A stretch of 39,248 nucleotides of DNA from Acidimicrobiia bacterium. Lineage in GTDB: Bacteria > Actinomycetota > Acidimicrobiia > Acidimicrobiales > Aldehydirespiratoraceae. Made by a program: the position numbers and the translations under genes. The DNA is taken from contig JAHQYN010000021.1 in assembly GCA_024421085.1 (NCBI GenBank), positions 1-39,248 of the forward strand, in the 5' to 3' direction. The first letter of the stretch is position 1. Every line of letters starts with the position of its first letter. Positions 1-36,266 of the stretch are shown piece by piece. The notes below the pieces were generated by a model that ran no database searches, had not been told where the DNA came from, and saw nothing but the letters and a program-made list of their open reading frames with translations.

Positions 1-1431
1 TCAGGGATCGAACACAAGTGCGTTGAACTCGTCTAGCAGGTGGTCGAGCAGGAACTCTTCGTGGACGATGAGGCGGCGGCGATTGAAGGCATCTCGTAGC
101 TTCGGGTCCCAAGGCGTGGATCCGCATTCGCGCGGCTCGCGTTCAAGCTCCACATTGGACTGCGCGGCCTTCTCGACTGCGGCTTCGTAGTCGGAGGCGG
201 CCATCATCGTTGGCCGGCAGCCGCCCTGCTGCATGCGGCGGCAGATGTCGAGCCCGGCTGTGTCGAAGTCGCCGTGGTAGAGCAGACGGGTGCCGCAACC
301 CAGCAACTGCTCGACAAGGATCCACACTGCTGCTGTGGGGTTGCCGTTGGTGGCGACAACGCTGCCCGGCAGGGTGCGCTCGGCAGCCGCCTCGACTAGC
401 CGCGGGTTCTCGACGACCAAGACGAGCGTGCCCGCGGGCACGCTGACCGGATGCCTGCGCAGCGCCATCAGGGTGAGGTGGACGGGGATCGCCCCGGCGC
501 CAGCCGCGCGTATCAGCTCCCCCAGCGGGGAGGCGCCGGTTGCAGGAAGCGCCCAGGTGAGCACGGGCGCGGAGACCAGGTCGGTCTGGACCCCTGCCGT
601 CTCCCACAATTCCCGACCCCTGAGCCCCGGCGCGTCGATGCGGAACCGAAGCGCCGCCTCGGTCGCTGTGGCGAGCTTGTGGCCGCGGTCCAGGGCATGC
701 GCAGACCCGAACAGTGCGGCGGCCGCCTCGGTGCGGCCCACGCCCGTTTCCGAAGCGGCCTCGAGGTGGTCGATCAAACGTCTCACATCCGCGACGAGGC
801 GGGTGACCGCAACGCCGTCGAGTCCCGCAATGATCCCCGAGCGCCGCACCTCTGCAGCCCAGTCTGTCGCCCAAGGCTCCCTCCAGGATTCAGTGGCCTC
901 GCGCAGCGCGTCGCGTGCCGCGCGGGTACGGGCCCGGGCCTCGCGCCGTTCGGCAGCGTCCACCGACGGAGGATGGCCGAGACGGCTGATGGCGTCGCAC
1001 AGGTCGCGGCCGATGCTGCGATCCAACAGGGCTGCTTCCAGTTCGTTCAGGTCGAGCCTGCGCGGCGGCCTGCGGCCGATCAGTGAGGCGATGCTCAGGC
1101 CGGCTGCCCGGTCGAGGTCGGGGAGGCTGACAGTGCCGCGCCAAGCAGGGCCGTTGCGGTCGAGCCTGTGGCGGACTGTTGCCCACAGAGCGTCGAGCCC
1201 AGCAAGCAGCAGCGACTCGGGAACATCCGGTCCGGCTATGTCGGGTTGGGTCGTGTCGGGTCTGGCCATGTCGGGTCTGGCCATGTCGGGTCTGGCCATG
1301 TCGGGTCTGGCCATGTCGGGTTGGGTCGTGTCGGGGTGGGGCATGTCGGGGGTGGGCCTGTCGGGCTTGCGGCGCCCGGTGGGGGGCGGGCGCGGGGCCG
1401 TTGCGGCTTGGGTGATGGCGGGTCTGGCCAT
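1..1431 (-). CDS. jetD: Wadjet subunit JetD (TIGR02679/DUF2399, Toprim-like nuclease)
   Basis: Last gene of a Wadjet operon. In type I Wadjet, JetD is the nuclease that cleaves circular plasmid DNA after JetABC loop extrusion (family knowledge). The 476-residue product has the two-part family layout: an N-terminal DUF3323-like region and a C-terminal Toprim-like region with the glutamate in VENP (about E341) and the acidic pair in HGDFDTAG (D388, D390). The stop is in the first three bases, so the gene is complete. The start is uncertain: an in-frame TAG lies just upstream of 1431, and the first ~70 residues are proline-rich low complexity with a repeated DMARP pentapeptide in which every unit carries a possible ATG. 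The conserved part begins near VPESLLLAGLDALW. It lies 80 bp after jetB and is probably co-transcribed. Confidence 0.9.
   Translation of the reverse strand: MARPAITQAATAPRPPPTGRRKPDRPTPDMPHPDTTQPDMARPDMARPDMARPDMARPDTTQPDIAGPDVPESLLLAGLDALWATVRHRLDRNGPAWRGTVSLPDLDRAAGLSIASLIGRRPPRRLDLNELEAALLDRSIGRDLCDAISRLGHPPSVDAAERREARARTRAARDALREATESWREPWATDWAAEVRRSGIIAGLDGVAVTRLVADVRRLIDHLEAASETGVGRTEAAAALFGSAHALDRGHKLATATEAALRFRIDAPGLRGRELWETAGVQTDLVSAPVLTWALPATGASPLGELIRAAGAGAIPVHLTLMALRRHPVSVPAGTLVLVVENPRLVEAAAERTLPGSVVATNGNPTAAVWILVEQLLGCGTRLLYHGDFDTAGLDICRRMQQGGCRPTMMAASDYEAAVEKAAQSNVELEREPRECGSTPWDPKLRDAFNRRRLIVHEEFLLDHLLDEFNALVFDP
1240..1359 (-). repeat. 15-bp tandem repeat, 8 units, in the 5' end of jetD
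   Basis: Eight 15-bp units run without gaps; four central copies (1255-1314) are identical and encode DMARP, while flanking copies encode DTTQP and variants. The array is in frame, lies before the conserved part of JetD, and supplies several alternative ATG codons. Confidence 0.9.
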
Positions 1432-1511
1432 GTCGGGCTAGCGGCTCTCGTTGGGTGCCGGCCGCTGGTCTGTTGCGAACGGGACGTCGCGGAACGCGGG
1501 CGGGTGTGCGG

Positions 1512-2660
1512 TCAAAACAGGTGCTCCTGTCTGAGACCGCCTTCGGAATCCGGGTCGGCAACGTAGACGGCGGCCTGGTAGCGCCAAGCAGCGGGGAGGA
1601 GGCGGAACGTGCCGTTGCTGACCTCGGCGAGCCGGTGGTCCTCGAGCAGGTCGAGTATCTCCCTGGCGAGGGTTTCAGGGTTGTCGGCGAGTTGCGACCA
1701 GTAGCGTCTGCGTTCGCTGGCCAGCGCGGCCACCTCGGCTGTGAACTCCGCTTCGGGCATGACCGTGCGCTCCGCTCTGGTGAGCCTGCCGAGGAGCAGC
1801 AGCGCGGCGTGCCCCTTGGTGCCGGTCCTGGGGAAGCGGCTGTCGGTCAGTTCGTCGTCGGGGTCGATCACGGCGACACCCTCGGCGCGCGCCTCGAGGC
1901 TGGCCCCGAACATCTCCTCGAAGACCTCCGACTCTTCGCCGAGGCGGCGGCGCAGCTCGCTCCATTCATCGTCGCTCAAGTCGGCGCGGTACAGCACCGG
2001 CTCCTCAAGCAGCGTCGCACGGAGCCACCGGCGTGTCGCGGTCGACCTCTCTGTGCGCTCCTGCAACTCTTGAGCGGTGTCGGCTCGTGCCAGCGCCGGC
2101 AACGGCAGCAGCGCTGCGCGATCGGGTCGGACCGCGAGAACGGCGTCAGCCTCGGCATCGGTGGAGTAGCGTTCGACTCGGTCGTGCAGTTCCGCGGCGA
2201 TGCCGTGGGCGATCAGCCAGCGCAGCGCCGTCACCAGGGCGCGGCGGTCTGCGGCCTCGCCGTTGATCGCCACCTCAGCATCGGTCGCCGCGGACCTGAC
2301 GTCTTGCAGCAGGTCGCGCAGGCTGACGACGGCAGGCCCTGAGGAGATCGCCGCGAGCAGCAGAGCCAGCATGGTGTATTCGCGGATCGAGAGCGGGCGC
2401 GGTTGGGCGGTGGCGGTGCGCAGGGGTCGTCGGTCGGCGACGGTGGTGGTCTTGTAGAGGCGCACCGTGTCGGCGCTGAGCTGCAGCCGGTAACCGAATC
2501 GTTGGGTGAACCAGCGGTCGAGTTGCTGCTCGTGCCGTCGGATCATCCCGAACGCGTCGGGATCGTCCTCCGCGGCCAGCAGCGGTTGGGCCGCGAGCAT
2601 CCGGGCGGCGCTTCGGAGCTCAGCCGCGCGGCGCGCCTCGGCAGCGTTGCGGACGCTCAC
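1512..2660 (-). CDS. jetB: Wadjet subunit JetB (TIGR02678, KITE-like)
   Basis: 382-residue TIGR02678-family protein. JetB is the KITE/MukE-like subunit that binds the kleisin JetA in the Wadjet condensin complex (family knowledge). The N-terminal block AARMLAAQPLLAAEDDPDAF, followed by a winged-helix-like region, is typical of the family. The GTG start overlaps the jetA stop (GTGA, 2657-2660), indicating translational coupling. Length and frame are intact. The C-terminal region is rich in Arg, Glu and Leu helices. Confidence 0.88.
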   Translation of the reverse strand: MSVRNAAEARRAAELRSAARMLAAQPLLAAEDDPDAFGMIRRHEQQLDRWFTQRFGYRLQLSADTVRLYKTTTVADRRPLRTATAQPRPLSIREYTMLALLLAAISSGPAVVSLRDLLQDVRSAATDAEVAINGEAADRRALVTALRWLIAHGIAAELHDRVERYSTDAEADAVLAVRPDRAALLPLPALARADTAQELQERTERSTATRRWLRATLLEEPVLYRADLSDDEWSELRRRLGEESEVFEEMFGASLEARAEGVAVIDPDDELTDSRFPRTGTKGHAALLLLGRLTRAERTVMPEAEFTAEVAALASERRRYWSQLADNPETLAREILDLLEDHRLAEVSNGTFRLLPAAWRYQAAVYVADPDSEGGLRQEHLF

Positions 2661-4444
2661 AGCGGGGTTCCCAGTCCTGCGGCATCGGGCCCCTGATCTG
2701 CCGCCGTCGCGCCTGCCGCGGTTTCTGCTGCCACGGTGCTCGCTGCGGCGGTACTCGCCGCGGTGGTTGCTGCCGGGGTGCCTGCCGTCGTGCCTGCCGC
2801 GGTTTCTGCTGCCACGGTGTTTGCAGCCGGGGTCACGATTACTTCAAGGCCGTGCAGGGTGAGTCTGCCCTCGGAGCACTCAACGACGGTCGGCCCCTCG
2901 CCGGTTCGGCGCACTTCGCAGCGGACCCCGTCGGCTTCAGTTGAGCGGACGCGTTCGCCGGGGGAGGATTGTTGCCAACTGCGGCTCAGCAGGTCGCGCA
3001 GCATGGCGAAGGATGGGTCGGGAAGCTGCGCTCCGTCGAGCCGACCGGTCTCGTCGGCGCGGGCCAGAAGTTCGGCGGCCACGGCCTCTCTGGCCACGCG
3101 GTCCCGCTCTCGTCGCCGCCTGATCCGCTCCCGCTCGCTGCGGCGGTCCCGCAGCGGTGTGGCAGCGCCCCTCTGGATGCGTTCGCCGCGCTCTTGCAGC
3201 GAGACCGGGACGACGGCGCGGGGCGCGTCCTGCCATGGGGCGGTCGTCGGGGCGGGGTCGTCGGCGTCGGCGGACAGCGCGCCGATGCAGCGACAGGCGC
3301 CGAGCCCGAACGCGGCATCGGCGATCCGGTGGGCTTCGCGGGAGCTGGCGGCCCGGTCGAAGAAACCGGCCAGTTTCACGAAATCGGAACGCCGCGATGC
3401 CGTGCCCAGTCCGACACGCGAGAGGCGGGTCACGTTCGTGGTCAGCGTCCGCGCTGCCGCCACGGCCTGCCGGGTTAGCTGGTCGAGCCGGGAGGGGAGC
3501 CCCGGAGGCGGGCGGAACCAAGCGGCCAGATGGTCCCAGTCCTCGCGGTCGGCGCCCTTGTGGCGGCGGACGGCGGCGCTTCGGGCCAGGCCGGCGTCGC
3601 CCACGCGGGCTGCGAGCCCGGTCTGCAGCTCGGGGATCAAAACGTCGATCTGCGCCAGCACCTCGTCGAGGCTGCGGGCGATCGGGTGGGTCATGTTCTC
3701 GATCTCGCCGAGCTTCTCGGAGATGTAGCCGACGAGCACCGTGGCGAAGAGCTGGATCTCCTCGGCATCGAGGTCGTAGCGGTTCTGCCACGAGTTGAGC
3801 TGCACGAAGAATTGGGTCAGCTCGCTGGTGAACCGCTCATGGAGGTCGAACACATGGCGCACCCGGTCGGCCAGATCGACGCGGTCGGGACCGGCGCTGA
3901 TCTGTTGGGCCAGCTCCCGCAGCGAGCGGTGGAGGTCGCGGAGCCGGCCAGTCTGCACGTCGCCGATCTCCTCAGCGGTCGCCAGCACATCTTCGACCAG
4001 CTCATGGACCTGCTGGCCAGCGCGAGTGATCAGGTAGCGGTTGTGTCGGCGGTAGTAGTCCTCCACGCTCGACGGCGCCCCGACGTCGGCGGACACCGTC
4101 AGGTTGCCCCAGCGGCGCAGGCTCTCGAGCCGGTTTGCAACCGCCCCCGGATCGATTCTGGCGGCGGCGACGGCCGGGTGCGCGGCCACATCCTCGGCGG
4201 TGAACTCAGCGAAGAAGGTGCCGGCGAAGACGACTAGAATCGTGCGGTAGTCCTGCCATTCCGGGCTTGTGAGATAGCTGAACAACTGTCGGACCCGGCC
4301 CGGTCCGTCGTCTCCGTCGCTGCTCGCCGGGTACGCGCCCTCGGCGGTCTTCGGCCCGTCTCGGGCAGGTTGCGCGCCGGTCCCCGCGCCGGTCCCCGCG
4401 TCCGTCACCGCGTCCGTCACCGCGTCGGTCACCGCGCCGGTCAC
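2657..4444 (-). CDS. jetA: Wadjet subunit JetA (TIGR02677, kleisin-like)
   Basis: 595-residue protein of the TIGR02677 family, the kleisin-like (MukF/MksF-type) subunit that bridges the JetC ATPase dimer. The family block QLFSYLTSPEWQDYRTILVV starts near residue 52 and is followed by long helical segments. Both ends are low complexity: residues 1-25 are VTDA/GTGA tetrapeptides and the last ~60 are Ala/Thr-rich with a duplicated STVAAETAAG-like stretch. Neither end resembles the core, so they look like later additions from repeat expansion. The GTG start at 4444 overlaps the jetC stop by four bases, so jetC, jetA and jetB form one tightly coupled operon. A downstream start nearer the conserved block is possible. 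Confidence 0.87.
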   Translation of the reverse strand: MTGAVTDAVTDAVTDAGTGAGTGAQPARDGPKTAEGAYPASSDGDDGPGRVRQLFSYLTSPEWQDYRTILVVFAGTFFAEFTAEDVAAHPAVAAARIDPGAVANRLESLRRWGNLTVSADVGAPSSVEDYYRRHNRYLITRAGQQVHELVEDVLATAEEIGDVQTGRLRDLHRSLRELAQQISAGPDRVDLADRVRHVFDLHERFTSELTQFFVQLNSWQNRYDLDAEEIQLFATVLVGYISEKLGEIENMTHPIARSLDEVLAQIDVLIPELQTGLAARVGDAGLARSAAVRRHKGADREDWDHLAAWFRPPPGLPSRLDQLTRQAVAAARTLTTNVTRLSRVGLGTASRRSDFVKLAGFFDRAASSREAHRIADAAFGLGACRCIGALSADADDPAPTTAPWQDAPRAVVPVSLQERGERIQRGAATPLRDRRSERERIRRRRERDRVAREAVAAELLARADETGRLDGAQLPDPSFAMLRDLLSRSWQQSSPGERVRSTEADGVRCEVRRTGEGPTVVECSEGRLTLHGLEVIVTPAANTVAAETAAGTTAGTPAATTAASTAAASTVAAETAAGATAADQGPDAAGLGTPL

Positions 4445-4451
4445 CGCGTCG
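4380..4451 (-). repeat. 12-bp tandem repeat, 6 units, spanning the jetC/jetA junction
   Basis: Six 12-bp units related to gtcaccgcgtcc on the plus strand. They encode the VTDA/GTGA repeats at the JetA N-terminus and run into the jetC stop/jetA start overlap. Confidence 0.85.
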
Positions 4452-7400
4452 TCCGTCGTGACAGTGCGGTGCCGTCCCAGTTGTAATGCTCCAGCAGGAT
4501 GGTCTTGAGGTCGGCATCTCGGACGACTTCGGTTATGGCCAGTTGCGGGACGGTCCCGTGGGTGCCCCAGAGCCGTTCGCTGGTGGCGATCAGGTCGAGG
4601 TCGAGGGCGACGATAAGGCCGAAGAGGTCGGCGTGGTTGTCCTCAGACACCTTCGCGAAAGCGTCGTCGAGAAGCACGAATCTGGCGATGCCTGAACGGT
4701 CCGGGTCGCTGCCGGGCCGCTGAGCGTCCAGCGCGTCGTGCGAGGCGGCGACTGCGGCGAACAGCGTCAGGTAGGTGACGATCTTCTTCTCTCCCTCCGA
4801 CAGCGGTGTTCTGCGTCCGAGGCGCGTCTCATTGCCGCCGCCGCGCCGCACCATCACCGCCATCTCATACCACTGCTTGTAGTTGAGCGTCTCGGCGATC
4901 AGTTGCCGGTAGGAGCCGTCGGGATCCTGCGCTCGGGCTTCGGCGAGCCGCTCTGAGAGGAGGGTGCGCAGTTCGCGCTGGTCATCGGGCAGACGGAGGT
5001 CGGGCCGTTTGGCGAGCAGGTCGACCATGCGCGCCGTTGACGGGTCGAGTTCCGGGGAGAGCCGCCAGCGCAGCCGGACGCCCACATCGTGAGCGGTTGC
5101 GACGCTGGAGAGCCTCTCGTTCATCGACTCGACGAGACTCTCGGCCCCGTGCGCCTTCTCGGCGATCTCGGCGGCGATCAGGCCCTGCAGCAGCTCGCGC
5201 AGAGCGTCGGACTGCTTCTGGTCGAGCAACCCGGCGAGTTGTCGGTGCTGCTCAGACACCGTCCCTGCCGCCCGGGCCAGGGTCGCCCTGCCCGCCGGAC
5301 CGGCGACCTCCACGACGAGCGGCAGCAGGGGGTCGATGTAGCGGGGCGCGGGGTCCCCGCCGGCCGGGCGCCCTCCAGGCGGGGCGGAAGCGGGGGTTCG
5401 ATGTAGCGGCCCTGGGCACCCCAGCCGCTGCCGAGGGAGTCGCGCCGCTGCCGCAGCGATGCAAGCACGCTGTTGACATCGGCCGGTCCGGCCGCGGAGT
5501 CGGCGCCGGCGGCGGTTGCGCCGTGCCCGTGCCCGGTGCCAAGCAGCCGCTCGATCTCGCCGATCAGTTCCTTGAGTCCCTCGCTGCCGCCGTGTGCTGT
5601 GCAGACAGGTTCGACCGTGGTTGAGCCGACCGGCGACACCACGGCTTCGAGCACGCCGGGAGTCGCGACAGCCTCGGCCAGCGAGTGGCGCATCTCCTCG
5701 CATTCGCGTTCAGCACGCTCCCGGCTCGCAGCGGCGAGTCCAGCGTCGGCCCGAGACTTCGCGAGCCGCTCGAATGCGGTCTCGCGGTCGCCGCGAACCG
5801 CGGGCAGGCGAGTCTCTGCTGCTGTCAGCTCGGCTCTCCGTTCGTCCCGCTCGGCGACGACATTCTGGTAGTCGTCGCCGATGCTGCGCCTGATGGTGGC
5901 GAGCCTCTGGCTCTGCCTTGCGTGCTGGTCGGTGATCCGCTCGTGTTCCTGCTGCTCGGCACGGAGGTCTGCGGCTGCGGTTCGCCAGCGCTTGGCGGCG
6001 GCGGCCCAGGCCTCAGCCGACCTGGCTGTGACGGCGCTGTGGGAGCGGCAGCGCTCCAGGGTCTCACCCAACTCGCGCAGGTCCGCCCGAAACGACGCCA
6101 GGCCGTCGGCATCGCTGGGCAGGCTCAGGGTGAACGCACGGCGTTGCAGATCGTCGGCCGCCGCGACGGCTGCGCGCTCGGCCTCGGCGGCCCGTTCGGC
6201 AGCCTCTGAACTGGCCGTTCGGGCCTCGCCGGCTGCGGCATCGGCATCGTTGAGGGCGCCTGTCGCCTCCTCTATCGCCGAGGTGCCCGGAACTTCGGCC
6301 TGCAGCCGGCGGGCGGCGCCGAGCGATTCTGCCAGCGCAGAGAGTTCGGTCTCGGTGGCGTCGGCCGCGGCTCTGGCCTGCCGCAGGGCCTCGGCGGCGG
6401 TGCTCCGTTCGCGGTCGAGCGCCTCGCGGCGGGCGGTCGCGCCGATGAACTCGGCGCGTTCTTTGAGGTGGCGGCCTTCGAGCCCGCCGACGCGGAAGGC
6501 CCCGTCGACACCCGCGGCGGTGGCAGTGCGAGCAGAGGAGTCCGCGGAGATCGAGTCGAGCAACTCGGCGACCTGGCCAGCGTCCACCACCCCGGCCAAG
6601 CGGTCTGGAATTGTCACGCGCAACAGGTCGCTCAGCGGGCTCTCGACACGGCCGGCGGAGACGGCGACGAGTTCACCGTTGACCAACTCGGCACCACCGT
6701 TGTCGGCGAGGCGGGCCGCGAGCAGTCCGGAGGCCTCGAGCGCGGCCTCGAGGCCGGCCCTGCTGCTGTCATTCAGGCGCGGGTCAAAATCGATCAGGTC
6801 GGCGATGCAGTGGTCGGCAACGGCCTGCCACTCGAAGTGGGGCGGATCGGGCTCGGTCTGCGCGGCGAGTCTGTCCACGAGTGCCTGCGCGTCGTCTTGC
6901 GCGGTCCGCTCGGCTGCCAGCCGGTGCTCGCAGGCGGCGACGGCGTCGACCCAATGGGCGACGAGGGCGGCAGCAGCTGCGCGCAGTTGCGCTGCGAGGT
7001 CCTGTGGAGCGGTGCCGACCGCGGTTGTCTCGGCGCCAGCGAGGGTCTCGACGACGGTCGACTCGACCGCCGTGGCCGACAGCAGCGGCAGGGCTCTCGA
7101 CGCCCAGAGCCCGGCCTGCTCCTGCCACGCCCGCTTTGCTGCGGCCAGTGCCCGGGTCCGTTGAGCGAGCCTTTCGCCGGCACTGCGGGCGGCGGCTTCG
7201 GCGGCTTCGAGCACCGTGTCGGCGCGGCGCTGCAACTCGACTGCTTCGTCGAGTTGGCGACGGGCGTCGTCCACCTCGGCGAGGTCGCCGCGGCGCCGGC
7301 TGAGCGCTCCATGGGAGTCGTCGAGGCCGCAGTCGACCGCGGTGGAGTCGAAGGGCGCGGCCGGTTCGTTCGCGGCGAGGCTGTCGAGGGCCGCCTCAGA

Positions 7401-8645
7401 TATCTGTGCGGGGCCCAACGGGCCGGCGGCCAGCCCGCATCTTGTTGCGAGCTGTGCCGCGCCTGCCAGAGCCTGGTTCAGTTGGTCCAAGTCGCCTCTG
7501 CTGCGCACCTGTGCAGCCTTGACCTGGGTTCCTTGGTCGTCGGCCCGCCCGGTGCAGTCCGCGACGCGTGCTCTGGCTCTTGCGCTCTGCCGGTCGAGAT
7601 CATGCACGAGTTCTTCCAAGGTGGCGAGCTCCTGGCCCGACTTGTAGGCCTGGGACTCCTCAAGCGCGGTGATCTGGCTTCCCAGAAGCTTGATCTCACG
7701 GTCGAGACGGGCGATCTCCCCGTCCAGCCGTTCAACCTCGGCCTCAGCGTCCCTGACAGCCCCTTGAGCCTGCTTCTCGTCGCGGGCTCGGCGGCGCAGC
7801 GCGTTGAGCCGGTCGGCCCCCTCGTCGGTCCGCCGGCGCAGGTCGCCGACACAGTAGGAGCGGTAGACGGCGAGCAGGCCGTCGACAGCAGCCACAGTCC
7901 TTTCGAGTGCGGTGACGTTGCGGCGGTGCTCCTCGAGGTCGTCGAGGGGCTGTGCGGCTTCGGCAAGGGCCTGCTCGGAGAGCCGGGGAAGCACGTCTAC
8001 GAGTCGTTGCGGGAGATCGACGTCTATCCGGTCGCCGACACGGGGATCGCGCACCAGGTGGATCAGGCCGATGTGCTCGTCGATCGACGCGCCGCCGAAC
8101 AGCCGGCGCTCGATCTCGCGCCGGTAGTCGCGGCGCTGCCGTGCGGGGTACACAGTGCCTTCGTCGAGCACCGCCCGCAGGGCGTCAGCGCTAAGCGGGA
8201 CTTGGCCCCTGACCAGCCCGAAGTCAATACCGACCCGCTTGGGAGAAACGAACCACCAGGTGGTGACATTGTCTGAGGCCCGATTGGCCTTGATGCCGCA
8301 ACCGCAGGTGAAATGCTCGCCGCCGCGTTCGAACTCGACCCACAGATAGCCGACCGGTTGGGGATCGTCGCGCCCGTCGAGCATCCACGACTTGAGGATG
8401 CCGACCTGCTCGCCTGCGGCGTCGATCCCCCGCTGCCGGGCGGTCAGCAGGAACGGCAGCAGCATGTTCATCGCCGTGGACTTTCCCGAACCGTTGACGC
8501 CCCGCAGCAGCAACCGCCCCCCGGCGAAATGCAGCACCTCGTTCTCGTACTGGTAGACGTTGACGATGCCCGCACGGCACAGCTGCCACCGGTCGGGCCC
8601 CTCCCCGGATGCACTCAGCGCGTCTTTCGCGTCCAGCAGAACCAT
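4441..8645 (-). pseudogene. jetC: Wadjet subunit JetC (TIGR02680, SMC-like ATPase), frameshifted
   Basis: SMC-like motor ATPase of Wadjet, which would extrude DNA loops. The first frame (from ATG 8645) has Walker A GVNGSGKST at residues 49-57 and then long Ala/Glu/Arg-rich coiled coils. The signature LSEGEKK and Walker B FVLLDDAF lie in a second frame that ends at 4441. The frames meet near 5343-5408, inside two diverged copies of the same segment 65 bp apart. Removing one 65-bp unit joins the frames exactly and gives about 1379 residues, a plausible family length. As written, the first frame ends at 5178 with about 1155 residues and lacks the distal ATPase half, so Wadjet should be inactive unless this is an assembly or sequencing error. 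No canonical -1 slippery heptamer was found. Upstream TTG 8654 is an alternative start; a TACCGT box lies just ahead. Confidence 0.85.
5290..5408 (-). repeat. Diverged 65-bp tandem duplication at the jetC frameshift
   Basis: The 54-bp segments 5355-5408 and 5290-5343 align without gaps at 43 of 54 positions by my count, with a 65-bp period. They encode RYIEPPLPPRLEGARPAG and RYIDPLLPLVVEVAGPAG. Since 65 is not a multiple of three, the second copy is read in another frame. Confidence 0.8.
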
Positions 8646-8810
8646 CGGCAACACGGTACATGAGGCACCGACAACCGCGCAGTGCCTGACTACCGGGTGC
8701 AGTGGTGCAGGCGAGGTCGCCGCCGGCAGAACTCGTGCCGACCGCCGCGTGAGGCCTGACTACAGGATGCCGTCGGTCGTGGTCCGTTCCGGCGACGGCA
8801 GGTCGGCGTC
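8646..8810. other. Intergenic region upstream of the Wadjet operon
   Basis: No gene seen. It must hold the jetC promoter and the end of the RCCR-operon transcript. A partial direct repeat (gcctgactac core, near 8692 and 8754) is the only other structure noticed. Confidence 0.5.
8653..8658 (-). promoter_or_regulatory. Possible -10 box (TACCGT) for a near-leaderless jetC transcript
   Basis: TANNNT box on the minus strand whose last base is 8 nt from ATG 8645. The predicted transcription start is within a base of the start codon. No Shine-Dalgarno sequence is evident. Confidence 0.4.
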
Positions 8811-15823: not shown

Positions 15824-17565
15824 GGTTGTGGTGGCGTTTTGGATGGTGCCGCGCTGAGCACGACGGATGCTTGCCAGGGGCGTCCGGCGACCAGATCGGT
15901 GTTTTTGGAGACCTCTCGATGCAGTGCTCGACCGGGGTGCAAGGTTGAAATCGACATCCCGTCGCCGGGCTTTGCGCGGATGGTCTCGGGAGTGTTGATT
16001 GTGCCGTCGTAGGCGCTGGATCGATGTGGATTCCAGAGCGAATCAGCGGGCGGGTCGAGCAGCAGCGCGGCACCGGGCGAACCCGCCGGACCGCATGCCG
16101 CGAGGCTCACTCGGTTCTCGGCTGCCCGCTCCAGCAGAGCCAGGTCGCACTCCCAAGCGTGTTCAGGCTGCCAACACACCACAACGATGTGGGCACCGGC
16201 CACCGCAGCCAGTCGCATCGCTTCGGGGTAGCGGTGGTCATCGGCGATGAGCACCGCCAGATCGCCGAACGGAGTCCGATACAAACCGACCGAATCACCG
16301 AGGTCGGTGACTTGGGGGTAACGGTTGCTGCGGTGAATCTGTAGTTGTTCGTGAACGAGTCCCTGTGCAGACCAGACCTGGCCCCTGTGTTGGGCGGGGC
16401 TGTGTTGGGGGGGGCTGTGTTGGTCGGGGCTGTGTTGGGCGGGGTTGTGTTGGGCGGGGCTGTGTTGGGCGGGGCTGTGTTGGGCGGGGCTGTGTTGGGC
16501 GGGGCTGTGTTGATATTCTCCTGAGACGGTGGTCACCACCAGGATGCCCTCGGGGATTACGGGCGGCACCGGTGTCAGCTCCGGCAAGACCACCAGCGAC
16601 GCCCCCGAAGCGAAGGCCTCGTCGATGAGTCCCGGATTGGCTCGGGCTCCAGGTACGCAGGCGACCACAACCTCGGAGGCCAACCCGGAGGCCGGCTGGA
16701 CCGTATCGGCCTGCGCCAGTGGGGCGTACACCTTCGGGCGGCGCCCTGAGAGCCGGCCAGGATCAACCGCTGAAAGGTCGACGTCGGCGATGACCACGGC
16801 TTCACCGGTCAGCGGCGCGATGGCCAACACCGTGCCGTCGGGACCGACGATCTGACTCTCCCCGGCGCCGTTGAGAGTCTCGGGCGGTACGCCGAGCGCC
16901 TCGCTGAAAGCACCCACTCGGTCTGCGGGCAACAGCGGGCCGACCTTGTTGGCAGCCACCACGAACACGCCGTTCTCGGCGGCCCGCACCGGAACGTGCA
17001 GTGAGGCTTCGTCGCGGGCGAACGAGTTGAGGTTGTTCATCAACAGTCGGGCACCCCGCACCGCCAGTGTGCGCGGTATCTCAAAGGTCACGCCGTCCAT
17101 GCAGGAATACAGGCCGACGGGTCCGAAGCGGGTGTCGGCCACCGGGTGCGCCCCAGCGCCGGCGCTCAGGAAGGCCCGTTCGTTGCCCATCAGCATCTGC
17201 TTGTCGGCACTGGCCAGCAGTTCCCCGTCGGGGTCGAAGAGCAGGCCGGTAACGGTCACCCTCCCGTCGGGCCGGGGGATCGTCACGGCCATTGCTGCGT
17301 AGACGCCGTGCTCGGCGACCCGTCGGGAAAAAGCGCGCAGCCAGGGGCCGTCCAGTGCCACCGCGACGGCCTGGCAGTGCGCGGCATCGTCGTAGACCGA
17401 GATGTGGTTGCAGAACTCGGGCAGCACCACCAGATCGGCCCCTTGCGCGACGGCAGCGTCGAGCATTCGCAGGCAAGTGGCAAGGTTCTCGTCGAGGTCG
17501 CTGCCGGTGGCGAATTGCGCCGCCGCAACTCGCAAGCGGTCGCTCAACGGGGTCAGTTCAGGCAT
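15796..17565 (-). CDS. Tandem nitrilase-superfamily (CN-hydrolase) protein
   Basis: 589 residues containing two CN-hydrolase domains. Domain 1 (about 10-280) keeps the catalytic Glu-Lys-Cys: E50 in VVLPEF, K122 in ADKQ and C155 in YSCMDG. Domain 2 (about 300-560) keeps LPEL but reads IADDHRYPE where the nucleophilic Cys is expected, so it is probably non-catalytic. The domains are joined by a QHSPA pentapeptide repeat. The family hydrolyses amides, carbamoyl compounds or nitriles in the cytosol. Next to hydantoinase and other amidohydrolases, an amidase role on an opened ring is likely (inference). It is downstream of and co-directional with the iclR gene, with 193 bp of decayed repeats between. 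The last ~40 residues look non-conserved. Confidence 0.85.
   Translation of the reverse strand: MPELTPLSDRLRVAAAQFATGSDLDENLATCLRMLDAAVAQGADLVVLPEFCNHISVYDDAAHCQAVAVALDGPWLRAFSRRVAEHGVYAAMAVTIPRPDGRVTVTGLLFDPDGELLASADKQMLMGNERAFLSAGAGAHPVADTRFGPVGLYSCMDGVTFEIPRTLAVRGARLLMNNLNSFARDEASLHVPVRAAENGVFVVAANKVGPLLPADRVGAFSEALGVPPETLNGAGESQIVGPDGTVLAIAPLTGEAVVIADVDLSAVDPGRLSGRRPKVYAPLAQADTVQPASGLASEVVVACVPGARANPGLIDEAFASGASLVVLPELTPVPPVIPEGILVVTTVSGEYQHSPAQHSPAQHSPAQHSPAQHNPAQHSPDQHSPPQHSPAQHRGQVWSAQGLVHEQLQIHRSNRYPQVTDLGDSVGLYRTPFGDLAVLIADDHRYPEAMRLAAVAGAHIVVVCWQPEHAWECDLALLERAAENRVSLAACGPAGSPGAALLLDPPADSLWNPHRSSAYDGTINTPETIRAKPGDGMSISTLHPGRALHREVSKNTDLVAGRPWQASVVLSAAPSKTPPQPHRPRISSM
16385..16504 (-). 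repeat. 15-bp tandem repeat, 8 units, inside the nitrilase gene
   Basis: Eight units of ctgtgttgggcgggg (plus strand) with few substitutions, encoding QHSPA repeats inserted in domain 2, between its N-terminal strand region and the QLQIHRSNRYP block. In frame. Confidence 0.9.
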
Positions 17566-25989: not shown

Positions 25990-26005
25990 TGCAGATCATG
26001 ACCCC

Positions 26006-26833
26006 ATGACCGACGCTGTGACCGGTGAGGGCGTGACTGGCGACGCTGTGACCGGCGGGGGGATGGTTGGCGACGGGGTGACCGGCGAGGGCGTGACTGG
26101 CGACGCTGTGACCGGCGGGGGCATGGTTGGCGACGGGGTGACCGGCGAGGGCGTGACTGGCGACGCTGTGACCGGCGGGGGCATGGTTGGCGACGGGGTG
26201 ACCGGCGACGGGTTGCTCGACGACTATCGCCGTGCCGGGTTCAACAACCGGCTGGGATTCGGGGAACGGCCCGCGCTCGTGGTGATCGACTTCTGCCGGG
26301 CGTACCTCGATGAGGCATCGCCGCTGCATGCTGGCGTGGAGGACGCCCGCGCCTCGTGTGTGCGAGTGTTGAACGCTGCCCGAACCGCCCAGATCCCGGT
26401 GCTGCACACCCGGGTGGAGTTCCAGCCCGGCGGGGCCGACGGCGGGATCTTCTTCCGCAAGGTCGGCGCCCTCGAATGCTTCGTGAGAGGCAACCCGCTC
26501 GGCAAGTACGGGGCCGGCCTCGAACCCTCCGACAGTGAAGTGGTCGTGGTGAAGCAGTACGCCTCTGGATTCTTCGGCACTTCGCTGGCTTCCACTCTCA
26601 CCTCCATGGGTGTCGACACTCTGATCTGCACCGGGGTCTCCACCAGCGGTTGCGTCAGGGCCACGGCGCTCGATGCCTGCCAGCACGGGTTCGTGCCGAT
26701 CGTGGTGCGCGATGCCTGCGGAGACCGAGACGCGGCGGTGCATGAATCCAACCTGTTCGACCTCGACGCCAAATACGCCGATGTCGTGTCCGAACACGAA
26801 GTGCTCGCCTACCTGGCGACACTGACCGCCTGA
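26006..26833 (+). CDS. Isochorismatase-family amidohydrolase with N-terminal repeat
   Basis: 275-residue cysteine hydrolase. The catalytic Asp is in LVVIDFCRAY, the Lys in VVVKQYASGFFGT and the Cys in TGVSTSGCVRATA, the triad seen in N-carbamoylsarcosine amidase, maleamate amidase and nicotinamidase. The catalytic domain begins near DDYRRAGFNNRLGFGERPALV. The first ~67 residues are a Gly/Val/Thr repeat (units like VTGEG, VTGDA, VTGGG, MVGDG) from a 60-bp DNA repeat. The ATG at 26006 is the only clear start before it. Resemblance to maleamate- and carbamoyl-type amidases fits release of ammonia after imide or hydantoin opening (inference). The stop lies within the 66-bp repeat at 26823. Confidence 0.9.
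   Translation: MTDAVTGEGVTGDAVTGGGMVGDGVTGEGVTGDAVTGGGMVGDGVTGEGVTGDAVTGGGMVGDGVTGDGLLDDYRRAGFNNRLGFGERPALVVIDFCRAYLDEASPLHAGVEDARASCVRVLNAARTAQIPVLHTRVEFQPGGADGGIFFRKVGALECFVRGNPLGKYGAGLEPSDSEVVVVKQYASGFFGTSLASTLTSMGVDTLICTGVSTSGCVRATALDACQHGFVPIVVRDACGDRDAAVHESNLFDLDAKYADVVSEHEVLAYLATLTA
26018..26197 (+). repeat. 60-bp tandem repeat, 3 near-identical units, in the isochorismatase gene
   Basis: Units at 26018, 26078 and 26138, differing by only a few bases; each encodes 20 residues and is itself built of four 15-bp subunits. The very high identity implies recent expansion. In frame. Confidence 0.93.
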
Positions 26834-32363: not shown

Positions 32364-33575
32364 GTGAAGGTTGACGCATTTGAGACGTTCGTGGTCGCAA
32401 ACCCGCCGCCCTCGTTCGGTGGGCGGTACTTCATCTTCGTGAAGCTCGTCGCCGACGACGGAACGGTCGGCTACGGAGAGGTCTACACCGCCACCTTCCA
32501 CCCGCATGTCGTTGCCGCCATGATCGAAGACGTCTGCGAGCGCTGTCTCATCGGCCACGACCCCTTCCACATCGAGGCCCTGTGGCGCAACGTCTACGGA
32601 CGGGGCTACACGGCCCGGCCCGATGTCTCGCTCATCAGCGTCCTCAGCGGAATCGAGATCGCCTGCTGGGACCTCATCGGCAAAGCAGTCGACAAACCCG
32701 TCTACGAACTGCTCGGCGGCCAGGTCCACCGCCAGCTCCGCAGCTACACATACCTGTACCCCTCCGCGTCCGACGGCACCGACCCCTACACCGAGAACCG
32801 CGTCTACAACGACCCCGAACTCGCAGCCCAACGAGCCTCAGAAGAAGTCGAACGAGGGTTCACCGCAGTGAAATTCGACCCCGCCGGGCCCTACACCGTC
32901 TACGACGGCCACATGCCCAGCCTCGAAGACATCGAACGCAGCCGAGCCTTCGTCGCCGCCATCCGAGAAGCGGTGGGAACCAGAGCCGACCTGCTCTTCG
33001 GCACCCACGGCCAGTTCACCGCAGCAGGCGCCATCCGCCTCGCCCGAGCCCTCGAACCCTACGACCCGATGTGGTTCGAAGAACCCGTACCACCCGACAA
33101 CATCGAAGAGATGGCCAGAGTCGCCCGCCAGACCTCGATCCCGATCGCCACCGGCGAGCGCCTCACCACCAAGTACGAGTTCGCCCGAGTAGTCGAAGCC
33201 CAGGCCGCCGCCATCGTTCAACCCGCCCTCGGCCGGTCCGGGGGAATCCTGGAGACCAAGAAGATCGCCTCGATAGCCGAGACCCACCATGTGCAGATCG
33301 CCCCGCACCTCTACTGCGGCCCGATCGAAGCGCTCGCCAACATCGCCCTGGCCGCCTGCACCCCCAACTTCCTGATCCTCGAGGTGATCCAGACCTTCGC
33401 TGGCTTCTACGCCGACCTCCTCACCACCCCCATCGACTGGCACCACGGCTACGTCATCCCGCCGCAGGCACCCGGCCTCGGTGCCGACCTCAACGAAGAC
33501 CTGGCCCGAGCCAACCCCTACAACGACCCTCACCTGCACCTGGAACCCCAAAACCACCCCCACCCCTCCCAGTAG
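32364..33575 (+). CDS. Mandelate racemase/muconate lactonizing enzyme-family (sugar-acid dehydratase-like)
   Basis: 403-residue enolase-superfamily protein: an N-terminal capping domain (1-125) and a TIM barrel. Likely active-site segments are AVKFDPAG (base Lys), LLFGTHGQF, FEEPVPPDN (metal Glu), ATGERLTT (metal Glu) and PHLYCGPIE (His), resembling galactonate dehydratase/galactarolactone cycloisomerase-type members. GTG 32364 has GAGGAGGG at 32352-32359. It stands alone, without sugar-acid transport or kinase genes nearby. The last ~15 residues are His/Pro-rich. The exact substrate cannot be assigned. Confidence 0.88.
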   Translation: MKVDAFETFVVANPPPSFGGRYFIFVKLVADDGTVGYGEVYTATFHPHVVAAMIEDVCERCLIGHDPFHIEALWRNVYGRGYTARPDVSLISVLSGIEIACWDLIGKAVDKPVYELLGGQVHRQLRSYTYLYPSASDGTDPYTENRVYNDPELAAQRASEEVERGFTAVKFDPAGPYTVYDGHMPSLEDIERSRAFVAAIREAVGTRADLLFGTHGQFTAAGAIRLARALEPYDPMWFEEPVPPDNIEEMARVARQTSIPIATGERLTTKYEFARVVEAQAAAIVQPALGRSGGILETKKIASIAETHHVQIAPHLYCGPIEALANIALAACTPNFLILEVIQTFAGFYADLLTTPIDWHHGYVIPPQAPGLGADLNEDLARANPYNDPHLHLEPQNHPHPSQ

Positions 33576-33585
33576 CGACGTTTAG

Positions 33586-33655
33586 TACATCCGTTATGTA
33601 CTATTCGAAAACGGTAGAGAAAACTTTGAATTTTATACATAAAGTTCATAACTTA
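33586..33655. repeat. Left 70-bp AT-rich direct repeat flanking the AlbA_2 gene
   Basis: Matches 35357-35426 at 56 of 70 positions without gaps (my count). Shared core: ttatgtactatt and tacataaagttcataact. The ends have partial inverted symmetry (gttatgta/tacataa). Far more AT-rich than the surrounding DNA. Confidence 0.9.
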
Positions 33656-33682
33656 GTGACCGCCTCGCGGTGGCTCAGGGCG

Positions 33683-35344
33683 TCAGGAGTGCTTCGGGCG
33701 TGCTGTGTATCTGGCTGTGCGCCGTTCCCCGGTCATCGCGAGTTCGCCGCTGTCGCGCAACTGCCGCAGGAGATGTCCAGCCTGGAGTGGAGCGATCTGG
33801 CACAACTCAGCGGCTTCGCCTCGGCTGATCGAACCGTGCCGCTCCACAAAGGTGAGCACCATCTCCCGCTGCTGAATCTTCTCAAACCCCTTGGTACGAA
33901 CATACTCTGCCAGCTCGCCGAGTTGCCGGTACAGGGCCGCGGACATGTGATAGGTACGTGCCCTGCTCTCGCCGCGGGACTCGAGCAACCCCCGTTCAAC
34001 GAGCGCATTGAGCTCGGCCCGAGCTGAAGACGTGTCGATTTGAAACAACTCGGCGGCCCGAGCGGTGGTGATCCTGCGTTCGGCCCGAATCTCGTGCAGT
34101 GTGAGCAGATCCCGCAGGTCCAACTCCTCTCCCGAGCGGCGGAATTGGGCGATATAGCCTGCGAGGTCAGAATCGGCGGGCCCGGATCGAACGCGAACGA
34201 TCACCGAGTCGGTCGTGCTGCCGCTGTAGTCCGGCGGTGGTCTGCCGAGTGACAACTGTTGCTCGAACACCCGACTGATCCCGCGTCCGACACGGTCGAC
34301 GAGACCGGCCCGTTTGAAGGCTTCGGCGAGAGCGGGATTACGAGGGCGAGGCATTACCGACATCAAGTTGCTCGTGTTGACCCCAGGTGGGAACCCTCCC
34401 GGGTTCGAGACCGTCAGCGAGCCCCCGTTCATCCGGACCAGTGTCGGCCCCAGCTTGGTGTAGTCGCGATGCACCAGTGAATTGGCGATCAACTCCCGAA
34501 TCGTGGACTCCGCATATTGAGGCAAGGGAATACGGAACAGCCCGACCTCAACGTCTTCCTCGGTGTTTCGAGCATCCACACGCTCGACCAGCTGAGCCAT
34601 GGCACGCAGCAGTGGGTTGTGGCTGATTTCATTCGCCCGTATCTCAGTGCCGTCGAGTTCTTGAAAGCCGATCTCGTGGGCCGGAACGTGCCGACGGATG
34701 GCTTCGGCCGTCCCGAACAGTAGAACGGCGCCGACCGTCAGCCGGTCGTCACGATCCACCAGGCTGAGCGCTCGCAGAAGTTCAGTGTCCGACAATGAAC
34801 TGAGTGCATTGTCACCATCGCCTTGGCGGGCGAGTCCGCGCATTCGGTTCAGTTCGTTCCCGTCAAGGTCCTCCAACAAGATCCCATCAAGCACTCGCTG
34901 AGAGAAATCCGTCTCGCCCGCCGCAGCCGCCAATACCTCATGCGGACGCATCGGCAGGCATTGCGGGCTGCCTTTGACATCCACAGTTCGGCGAACGTAG
35001 CGGCCCCTGCTTGTGGCGTGAACCGAATCTGAGGCGGGCACCTCAATGACAGCAACGAGTTCGTTCTCGACCGTGACCGTTTCGACAGCGACCGTGATTG
35101 GCGGTTCTGTACGGGTCGAGATTGTTGCGGCGAGCCGCTGAGGATCGGCATATTCCTTCTTGTCTGGGTTGATCCCGTTGATCGCGCCGTTGTCGGTCAC
35201 TCCGAGCAGCAATCGGCCTCCGTCGGCGTTGGCCAGGCACACGACGGCTTCTGCGAGGTCGTCTTGGCCGACCCCGCCTCCCTTGAACTCGACGGTGAGC
35301 GTTTCGCCGACGCTAGCAAGTTCGGCTACTTCGTCCGGATCCAC
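33683..35344 (-). CDS. AlbA_2 (Schlafen-like) / HATPase-type putative regulator
   Basis: 553-residue protein. An N-terminal AlbA_2 domain (about 1-125: TLTVEFKGGG, AVVCLANADGGRLLLGVTDNG) is followed by a central HATPase_c_4-type region (IRELIANSLVHRDYT, LTVSNPGGFPPGV, RNPALAEAFKRAGLVDRVGRGI). The C-terminal ~190 residues contain two winged-helix-like segments (TTARAAELFQIDTSSARAELNAL, ISRGEAAELCQIAPLQAGHLL). This architecture is widespread in accessory regions as a predicted DNA-binding ATP-dependent regulator; the role is not established. GTG 35344 is placed exactly 7 nt after a TATAAT box; TTG 35350 is an alternative. The 70-bp repeats on both sides may be its operators or its insertion boundaries. 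Confidence 0.87.
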   Translation of the reverse strand: MDPDEVAELASVGETLTVEFKGGGVGQDDLAEAVVCLANADGGRLLLGVTDNGAINGINPDKKEYADPQRLAATISTRTEPPITVAVETVTVENELVAVIEVPASDSVHATSRGRYVRRTVDVKGSPQCLPMRPHEVLAAAAGETDFSQRVLDGILLEDLDGNELNRMRGLARQGDGDNALSSLSDTELLRALSLVDRDDRLTVGAVLLFGTAEAIRRHVPAHEIGFQELDGTEIRANEISHNPLLRAMAQLVERVDARNTEEDVEVGLFRIPLPQYAESTIRELIANSLVHRDYTKLGPTLVRMNGGSLTVSNPGGFPPGVNTSNLMSVMPRPRNPALAEAFKRAGLVDRVGRGISRVFEQQLSLGRPPPDYSGSTTDSVIVRVRSGPADSDLAGYIAQFRRSGEELDLRDLLTLHEIRAERRITTARAAELFQIDTSSARAELNALVERGLLESRGESRARTYHMSAALYRQLGELAEYVRTKGFEKIQQREMVLTFVERHGSISRGEAAELCQIAPLQAGHLLRQLRDSGELAMTGERRTARYTARPKHS

Positions 35345-35350
35345 CCACAA

Positions 35351-35356
35351 ATTATA
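35351..35356 (-). promoter_or_regulatory. -10 box (TATAAT) for a leaderless transcript
   Basis: Perfect consensus on the minus strand with its last T 7 nt from GTG 35344. The adjoining upstream DNA is the 70-bp repeat, which would contain the -35 region and any operator. Confidence 0.55.
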
Positions 35357-35426
35357 TACATGAATTATGTACTATTTGAAATCGGTAGTACAAACTTTAA
35401 GAATTGTACATAAAGTTCATAACTGA
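35357..35426. repeat. Right 70-bp AT-rich direct repeat flanking the AlbA_2 gene
   Basis: Partner of 33586-33655, same orientation. It lies immediately upstream of the gene's -10 box, so any binding site in it could control the promoter. No gene lies between it and the yaaA stop at 35496. Confidence 0.9.
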
Positions 35427-35495: not shown

Positions 35496-36266
35496 TTAGC
35501 GGACGAAGACGGGGCGGTCGGCGTTGGAACGGTCGGGATCGTATTCGTAACCGTCCTCGGCGAACTCCGTCAGGGCCTTCGGTGACCGAACCCGATTGCG
35601 GATGATCCAACCGGCCATCGACCCGCGTGCCCGCTTGGCGAAGAAGCTCACGATCCTCGGCTCAGCACCGTTCTTGGAGTCGAGGAACACCGGACTCACC
35701 AGCCGGGCCTGAAGCTGGCCGGGGTTGACCGCGCCGAAATACTCGTTCGAGGCCAGGTTGATCAGCGCACGCGCACCCGGGCTCGCCTCGATATCAGCAT
35801 TCAGCAGATCAGTGATCGAATCGCCCCAGAACCCGTACAGGTCTCTGCCACGGGCAGTAGCCACCCGGCTCCCCATCTCCAACCGGTACGGCTGCATAAG
35901 GTCCAGCGGCCGCAGCACCCCGTAGAGGCCCGACAGGATCCGCAACGTCTTCTGCGCATGCGTGAAGTCGCGTTCGCTGAACCTCTGCGGCGCCATCCCC
36001 AGGTAGACGTCGCCGTTGAAGGCCAACACCGCAGGCCGAGCATTCTCGGCAGTGAACGAGACCTGGAAATCCCCGAATCGTTCGTGGTTGAGCTCGGCCA
36101 GCGTCGGCGAGATCGACATCAGCTCACTGAGTTCTGACGGTGGCTTCTGCGCCATCACCTCGACCAGCTCCCGGCTGCGGTCCAAAAGCCGCGGCTCACT
36201 GCGCTTCTTCGTGACCAGCTTCGACTCGTAGTCCAGCGACTTAGCCGGGGAAACAACGATCAGCAC
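35496..36266 (-). CDS. yaaA: Peroxide stress protein YaaA (DUF328)
   Basis: 256-residue YaaA family protein. In Escherichia coli YaaA lowers free iron under peroxide stress and the fold binds DNA. Hallmarks: LIVVSPAKSLDYES at the start, FNGDVYLGM, LRILSGLYGVLRPLDLMQPYRLEMG, NLASNEYF and FFAKRARGSMAGWIIRNRV. GTG 36266 aligns with the family N-terminus. It follows the DmdA-like gene on the same strand after 46 bp, so the two may be co-transcribed. Complete. Confidence 0.95.
   Translation of the reverse strand: MLIVVSPAKSLDYESKLVTKKRSEPRLLDRSRELVEVMAQKPPSELSELMSISPTLAELNHERFGDFQVSFTAENARPAVLAFNGDVYLGMAPQRFSERDFTHAQKTLRILSGLYGVLRPLDLMQPYRLEMGSRVATARGRDLYGFWGDSITDLLNADIEASPGARALINLASNEYFGAVNPGQLQARLVSPVFLDSKNGAEPRIVSFFAKRARGSMAGWIIRNRVRSPKALTEFAEDGYEYDPDRSNADRPVFVR

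Follow-up and report, generated by a model that had tools for sequence, protein, structure and literature searches.

The window, the whole 39,248-nucleotide stretch of Acidimicrobiia DNA analysed here, has a G+C content of 66% and contains one pair of direct repeats, recovered by repeat search as two 68-nt copies that are 81% identical and enclose a single minus-strand gene. A preliminary description of the sequence had given two direct repeats of 70 bp at about 80% identity, the first 27 bp past the stop codon; the identity agrees, although the measured length is 68 bp and 29 bp (33654-33682) separate the repeat from the stop codon. The features of the locus are as follows.

32364-33575, plus strand: left neighbour, a mandelate racemase/enolase-type (MR_MLE) gene, flank of the locus
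33586-33653, no strand assigned: downstream AT-rich repeat copy, operator-like, without a -10 box (profile match 33580-33654)
33683-35344, minus strand: gene for a protein with Schlafen AlbA_2, HATPase_c_4 and two winged-helix domains, 553 aa from GTG (555 aa from TTG 35350)
35351-35356, minus strand: -10 box TATAAT, 6 bp ahead of the GTG start, read from the sequence
35357-35424, no strand assigned: upstream repeat copy, over the -35 region, with the best dyad (profile match 35351-35425)
35496-36230, minus strand: yaaA (peroxide stress protein), the right-hand neighbour and flank

As first described, the repeats are far more AT-rich than their surroundings, with AT fractions of 0.72 and 0.75, whereas the gene has 0.38 and the window 0.34; of all 68-mers in the window, 0.12% have an AT fraction of at least 0.70. 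With up to three mismatches allowed, the window contains a 17-nt part of the repeat twice, against none expected (100 shuffles). The internal symmetry noticed earlier is also present; it is strongest in the upstream copy, as a 12-nt arm pair with one mismatch (TTATGTACTATT / AATTGTACATAA), and takes the form of a 10-nt arm pair with one mismatch in the downstream copy. The predicted protein target in both copies is TTATGTAC...GTACATAA. The upstream copy spans the -35 region and, as had been reported, directly adjoins the -10 box, and the -10 sequence ATTATATACAT is found in all three upstream copies (those of the window's own genome, G000, and of its relatives G001 and G002) and is missing from the downstream copies. 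The identity between the two copies within a genome (0.78, 0.65 and 0.76) is about the same as that between like copies across genomes, so the repeat pair probably predates the split of these three species.

The start codon is likely GTG 35344 rather than TTG 35350 because of the starts of homologues, and since the -10 box lies only 6 bp before it, the transcript is probably leaderless. The protein matches SLFN_AlbA_2 (PF04326; E 1.3e-18, 68.1 bits against a cut-off of 25.3) and HATPase_c_4 (PF13749; E 1.7e-13), a minimal histidine-kinase or GHKL-type ATPase, and shows a weak HTH_39-type match (PF14090) at 20.3, just under the cut-off of 21.3. An AlphaFold2 model (mean pLDDT 77.5, pTM 0.47, such that relative domain positions are unreliable) displays an AlbA_2 domain at the N-terminus and, at residues 410-467 and 489-548 of the C-terminal part, two winged-helix units, each with a helix-helix-helix-strand-strand order. 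The closest solved structure, 3lmm (DIP2311), is related over most of the length (sequence E 2.7e-34, Foldseek 4e-30) at 21-24% identity, and its title states no function. No function fitting the whole protein was returned by PHROGs, NCBIfam or PADLOC. Among 82 homologues (80 loci from a genome scan and two viral contigs, with L058, L059 and L060 being G001, G002 and G009), E14 and E19 are kept in 79 and D51 in 76, and the ATPase residues E284 and N288 are kept in all 82. These acidic residues match in kind the E205/E210/D248 triad given for SLFN13 in the accessible part of PMC5862951, E14-E19 also in spacing; with the triad kept, the window protein is predicted to be an RNase.

The preliminary description held that AlbA_2 proteins of this layout have no settled role, a statement that is now outdated: the accessible part of PMC12839542 (Nucleic Acids Res 2026) lists Schlafen proteins with histidine-kinase-like and winged-helix domains as BREX-linked RNases, with a domain order equal to that of the window protein. 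Among our homologues, L111 lies between brxC and pglX in a neighbourhood of BrxA, BrxB, BrxC and PglX, L126 sits with type I methyltransferase, specificity and restriction subunits, L103 is next to DrmMI, and L087 neighbours a type I methyltransferase and restriction enzyme (all PADLOC models). The window gene belongs to a known defence-linked family, of which it is a stand-alone representative. It differs from the BREX-linked RNases in that it sits by itself, flanked by an enolase-type gene and yaaA, under a promoter of its own and with candidate operators at both ends; neither operators nor direct repeats are mentioned for the BREX-linked proteins in the part of PMC12839542 available.

The search for further copies and the comparison with empty loci that had been proposed were carried out with a repeat profile at E<=0.1 over 14 whole genomes, including records of the same genus, which are Acidimicrobiaceae/Acidimicrobiia metagenome genomes (to judge from the isolate names of such genomes, the host probably lives in sponges). 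The profile gives eight matches, two each in G000, G001 and G002 and one each in G003 and G004; as it was built from these same eight copies, only the absence of matches elsewhere is new information. There were no copies in G005 or in eight genomes of the family's other genera, none outside the listed sites in the 14 genomes, and no more than two in the window's own genome. A blastn-type search of 298 relatives missed the single copies in G003 and G004 and thus understates diverged copies.

Presence of the gene follows the same pattern. It is found in G000, G001 and G002, at the same locus in G000 and G001, and is absent from G003, G004 and G005 (E<=1e-40). In the latter three the MR_MLE and YaaA neighbours occur without it, and the gap between them holds one, one and no repeat, respectively. 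This tie between the repeats and the presence of the gene is directly observed, and a copy number of two, one or none that tracks gene presence or absence at one locus supports the earlier suggestion of cassette boundaries; judged from these comparisons, the gene and both sites behave as a removable unit. Compared with G001, the G003 copy is downstream-like at nearly all left diagnostic sites and upstream-like at four right sites, and looks like a joint of a downstream left part and an upstream right part, although the pattern is unclear when G000 or G002 serves as the reference. The G004 copy is a mosaic with no clean joint. Identities of the flanking genes group G000 with G005, and G001 with G003 and G004, of which the last two are closest; these are pairwise identities and not a tree. 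The simplest history would be that the ancestor had the gene, that the line of G003 and G004 lost it while keeping one copy, and that G005 lost it without trace, although separate gains may have occurred instead.

G002 carries the gene in other surroundings, with DNA similarity to the window stopping at 33579 and 35423. As evidence of mobility, exact relocation in G002 is weakened by two findings: neither the MR_MLE gene nor yaaA was matched in that genome, and its left flank agrees with the G000 flank at some C/A-rich letters (19 of 30). An empty counterpart of the G002 site, sought through its Fic neighbour, yielded only paralogues at 47-48%. The nearest homologue outside these genomes, in G009 (68% identical), is at a tRNA-Ser locus, with its YaaA on another contig, and its site aligns with that of the window (0 of 500 shuffles).

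Similar sites are also observed directly beside more distant relatives. The words AGTTATG and CATAACT are abundant upstream of homologous genes, and in a held-out test on 65 non-redundant upstream regions, with 7-mers picked on one half, the chosen words occurred in 8.65 of 33 regions (26%; mean of 20 splits) compared with 2.2% of AT-matched background. At least three of AGTTAT, ATAACT, GTTATG and CATAAC were present in 11 of 82 upstream regions (205 bp) and 7 of 82 downstream regions (300 bp), whereas in the rest of these loci none of 1693 background windows (300 bp each) had as many, although these four words overlap and derive from the same data, so that the held-out split is the fair test. 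In G041 the upstream and downstream sites are alike (0 of 1000 shuffles over the region; 1 of 500 with 90-bp pieces). For homologues within BREX and restriction-modification operons the upstream region is coding sequence. A gene remnant in G046 with an AT-rich stretch downstream was not counted, its likeness to the window site being weak (4 of 500 shuffles). We note that arrays of GTTATG phased at about 10 bp lie right after the Schlafen gene in L126 (Malikia spinosa, 6641-6720) and in the viral contig L138 (6638-6700), one of two contigs with relatives among 60 candidate viral stretches. The order in L126 is hsdM, hsdS, Schlafen gene, array and hsdR, and the position of the array before hsdR could mean that the Schlafen protein is a controller of restriction.

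Beyond the genus we asked how often homologues are bracketed by repeats, defined as blastn matches at E<1e-6 with neither copy more than 700 bp from the gene. This was the case for 8 of 78 homologues compared with 1 of 229 shifted control intervals at the same loci, and for 7 of 17 compared with 3 of 52 controls in a second genome-search set, which overlaps the first in that three of its seven (L009, L010 and L051) are first-set loci. Against the expectation that homologues elsewhere would carry such repeats, 70 of the 78 have none at this threshold. As most of the distant homologues lack flanking repeats, the paired copies are, on the loci compared, a trait of the near clade and not of the family. 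The bracketing sequence also varies: it is the candidate operator itself in G000, G001 and G002, operator plus a tRNA-Ser 3' end in G009 (242 bp), operator-like sequence in L083 (200 bp), a tRNA-Ser 3' end in G237 (56 bp), and the 3' end of the upstream gene in L100 (enoyl-CoA hydratase; 133 bp, 100% identity), L103 (DISARM drmMI) and L087 (type I hsdM). Further repeats bracket L070, L049 and L050. L050 is a second full homologue (51%) in the window's own genome, on contig C62, where its repeat is 91 bp long with 82% identity, and a third, partial homologue (L056) lies at the end of contig C98. A tRNA-Ser gene is present in 8 of the 15 homologue stretches L043-L057 (3.7 to 17 kb; anticodons gct, tga, cga and gga), an uncontrolled count, and in 3 of 60 in a wider set. 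SLFN13 is known to cleave tRNAs; tRNA cleavage by the Schlafen type and an integration hot spot would explain this proximity equally well.

The reading that we favour, at a probability of roughly 0.55, is that the Schlafen-type protein uses the 68-bp copies on either side of its own gene as its operator. As the upstream copy overlaps the promoter, the protein would most likely keep its own leaderless gene repressed through the two C-terminal winged-helix domains for as long as the ATPase part senses no invader; the position over the -35 region and next to the -10 box, taken with the AGTTATG/CATAACT arrays by homologues, makes this copy most likely the protein's own operator. The downstream copy would provide further binding for the protein and delimit the one-gene unit on its other side. 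With both copies in direct orientation, recombination between the two would delete the gene and leave one copy. The preliminary description had proposed either the boundaries of a cassette or a pair of operators; there is evidence for each and one does not preclude the other, although most of the distant homologues lack paired flanking copies. The paired-operator part draws on the inverted AT-rich word arrays and on the confinement of the site to this one locus in the genome. The copyless G005 is counter-evidence, since it needs a second, different loss or an originally empty state.

The differing contexts and the excess of flanking repeats over the family suggest that the gene moves as a unit; for the window itself, transposition is only a possibility, because G002, the sole near relative with other flanks, is without both neighbours. 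It is conceivable, although less likely than the favoured reading, that mobility has no part at all, in that an old resident gene had its operator duplicated once at the 3' side and was later removed by ordinary deletions, sometimes by chance between the repeats. The flank identities fit ancestral presence with two losses, the gene is 0.80 identical at the nucleotide level between G000 and G001, like its neighbours at 0.86 and 0.82, and the G002 context may stem from loss of the flanks, both neighbour genes being missing. The tRNA-Ser location in G009 speaks against it, as do several distant homologues bracketed by recent duplications of neighbouring sequence of up to 133 bp at 100% identity. 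We regard as improbable a site-specific recombinase supplied in trans, with the repeats as its attachment sites and the gene as cargo of a minimal integrative element. The homologues in G009 and G237 are bracketed by tRNA-Ser 3' end copies, and the G237 tRNA island, which is not strictly a one-gene unit, has an integrase ORF at its far end; however, the 39-kb window has no integrase (PF00589) match, its repeat is not tRNA-derived, and the repeat sequence is a promoter-proximal dyad that also occurs by relatives without a second copy.

Insertion with long target duplication, in which the repeat is a target sequence doubled when the gene inserted, has been described for restriction-modification genes (Nobusato et al. 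2000, as described in the accessible part of PMC1643837), where long direct repeats likewise bracket the gene and some empty sites hold one copy. The duplicated ends of upstream genes around L100, L103 and L087 and the single copy at two of the three empty loci are in line with it, and long direct repeats do surround the window gene. In the known case, however, the repeat is the target, whereas here the same repeat is found at other flanks in G002 and its upstream copy is the promoter region of the gene, so that it belongs to the insert; for the window we give this explanation very little credence. Equally slight are the prospects of a protein that binds and pairs its own ends and aids its own excision or insertion, an immune nuclease doubling as a mobility handler. 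Several mobile-element classes were rejected: an integron cassette (no PF00589 match in the window; single-strand folds of attC type unremarkable, z -0.9 to -1.9), a tyrosine-recombinase integrative element (one gene only between the repeats, and again no PF00589), an IS or transposon (the repeats are direct and not inverted, and the protein has no transposase-type domain), an IS or MITE (two copies only in the genome), and a tRNA-derived window repeat (neither the window nor the stretches from G001 and G002 contain a tRNA).

There is a parallel to BrxR, which, in the accessible parts of PMC9122589 and PMC9122601, is an autoregulated DNA-binding protein acting on a defence locus, as the window protein would act on its own promoter. 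BrxR has a WYL domain, whereas the window protein itself carries the likely effector nuclease. The protein type is already in print and the bracketing candidate operators are the new part; no paper listed in the open-access literature searched dealt with operators of such Schlafen genes or with repeats around them. The site offers a testable candidate binding site for a large bacterial Schlafen family, and one pair of DNA sites would tie control of a defence gene to its loss. The counts against control intervals also extend insertion with long direct repeats, known for restriction-modification genes, to Schlafen genes.

Two other features of the window are recorded here. A Wadjet type II operon, jetA, jetB, jetC and jetD by PADLOC models, occupies 1-8654 on the minus strand, in which jetC is apparently divided between two frames that overlap (5178-8654 and 4441-5703), perhaps through a frameshift or an error of assembly. 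Judged from the ORF list alone, otherwise ordinary ORFs carry short peptide repeats in frame (DMARP, QHSPA and VTGEGVTGDAVTGGGMVGDG), near their starts or inside them, at about 1100-1400, 16400-16520 and 25990-26250.
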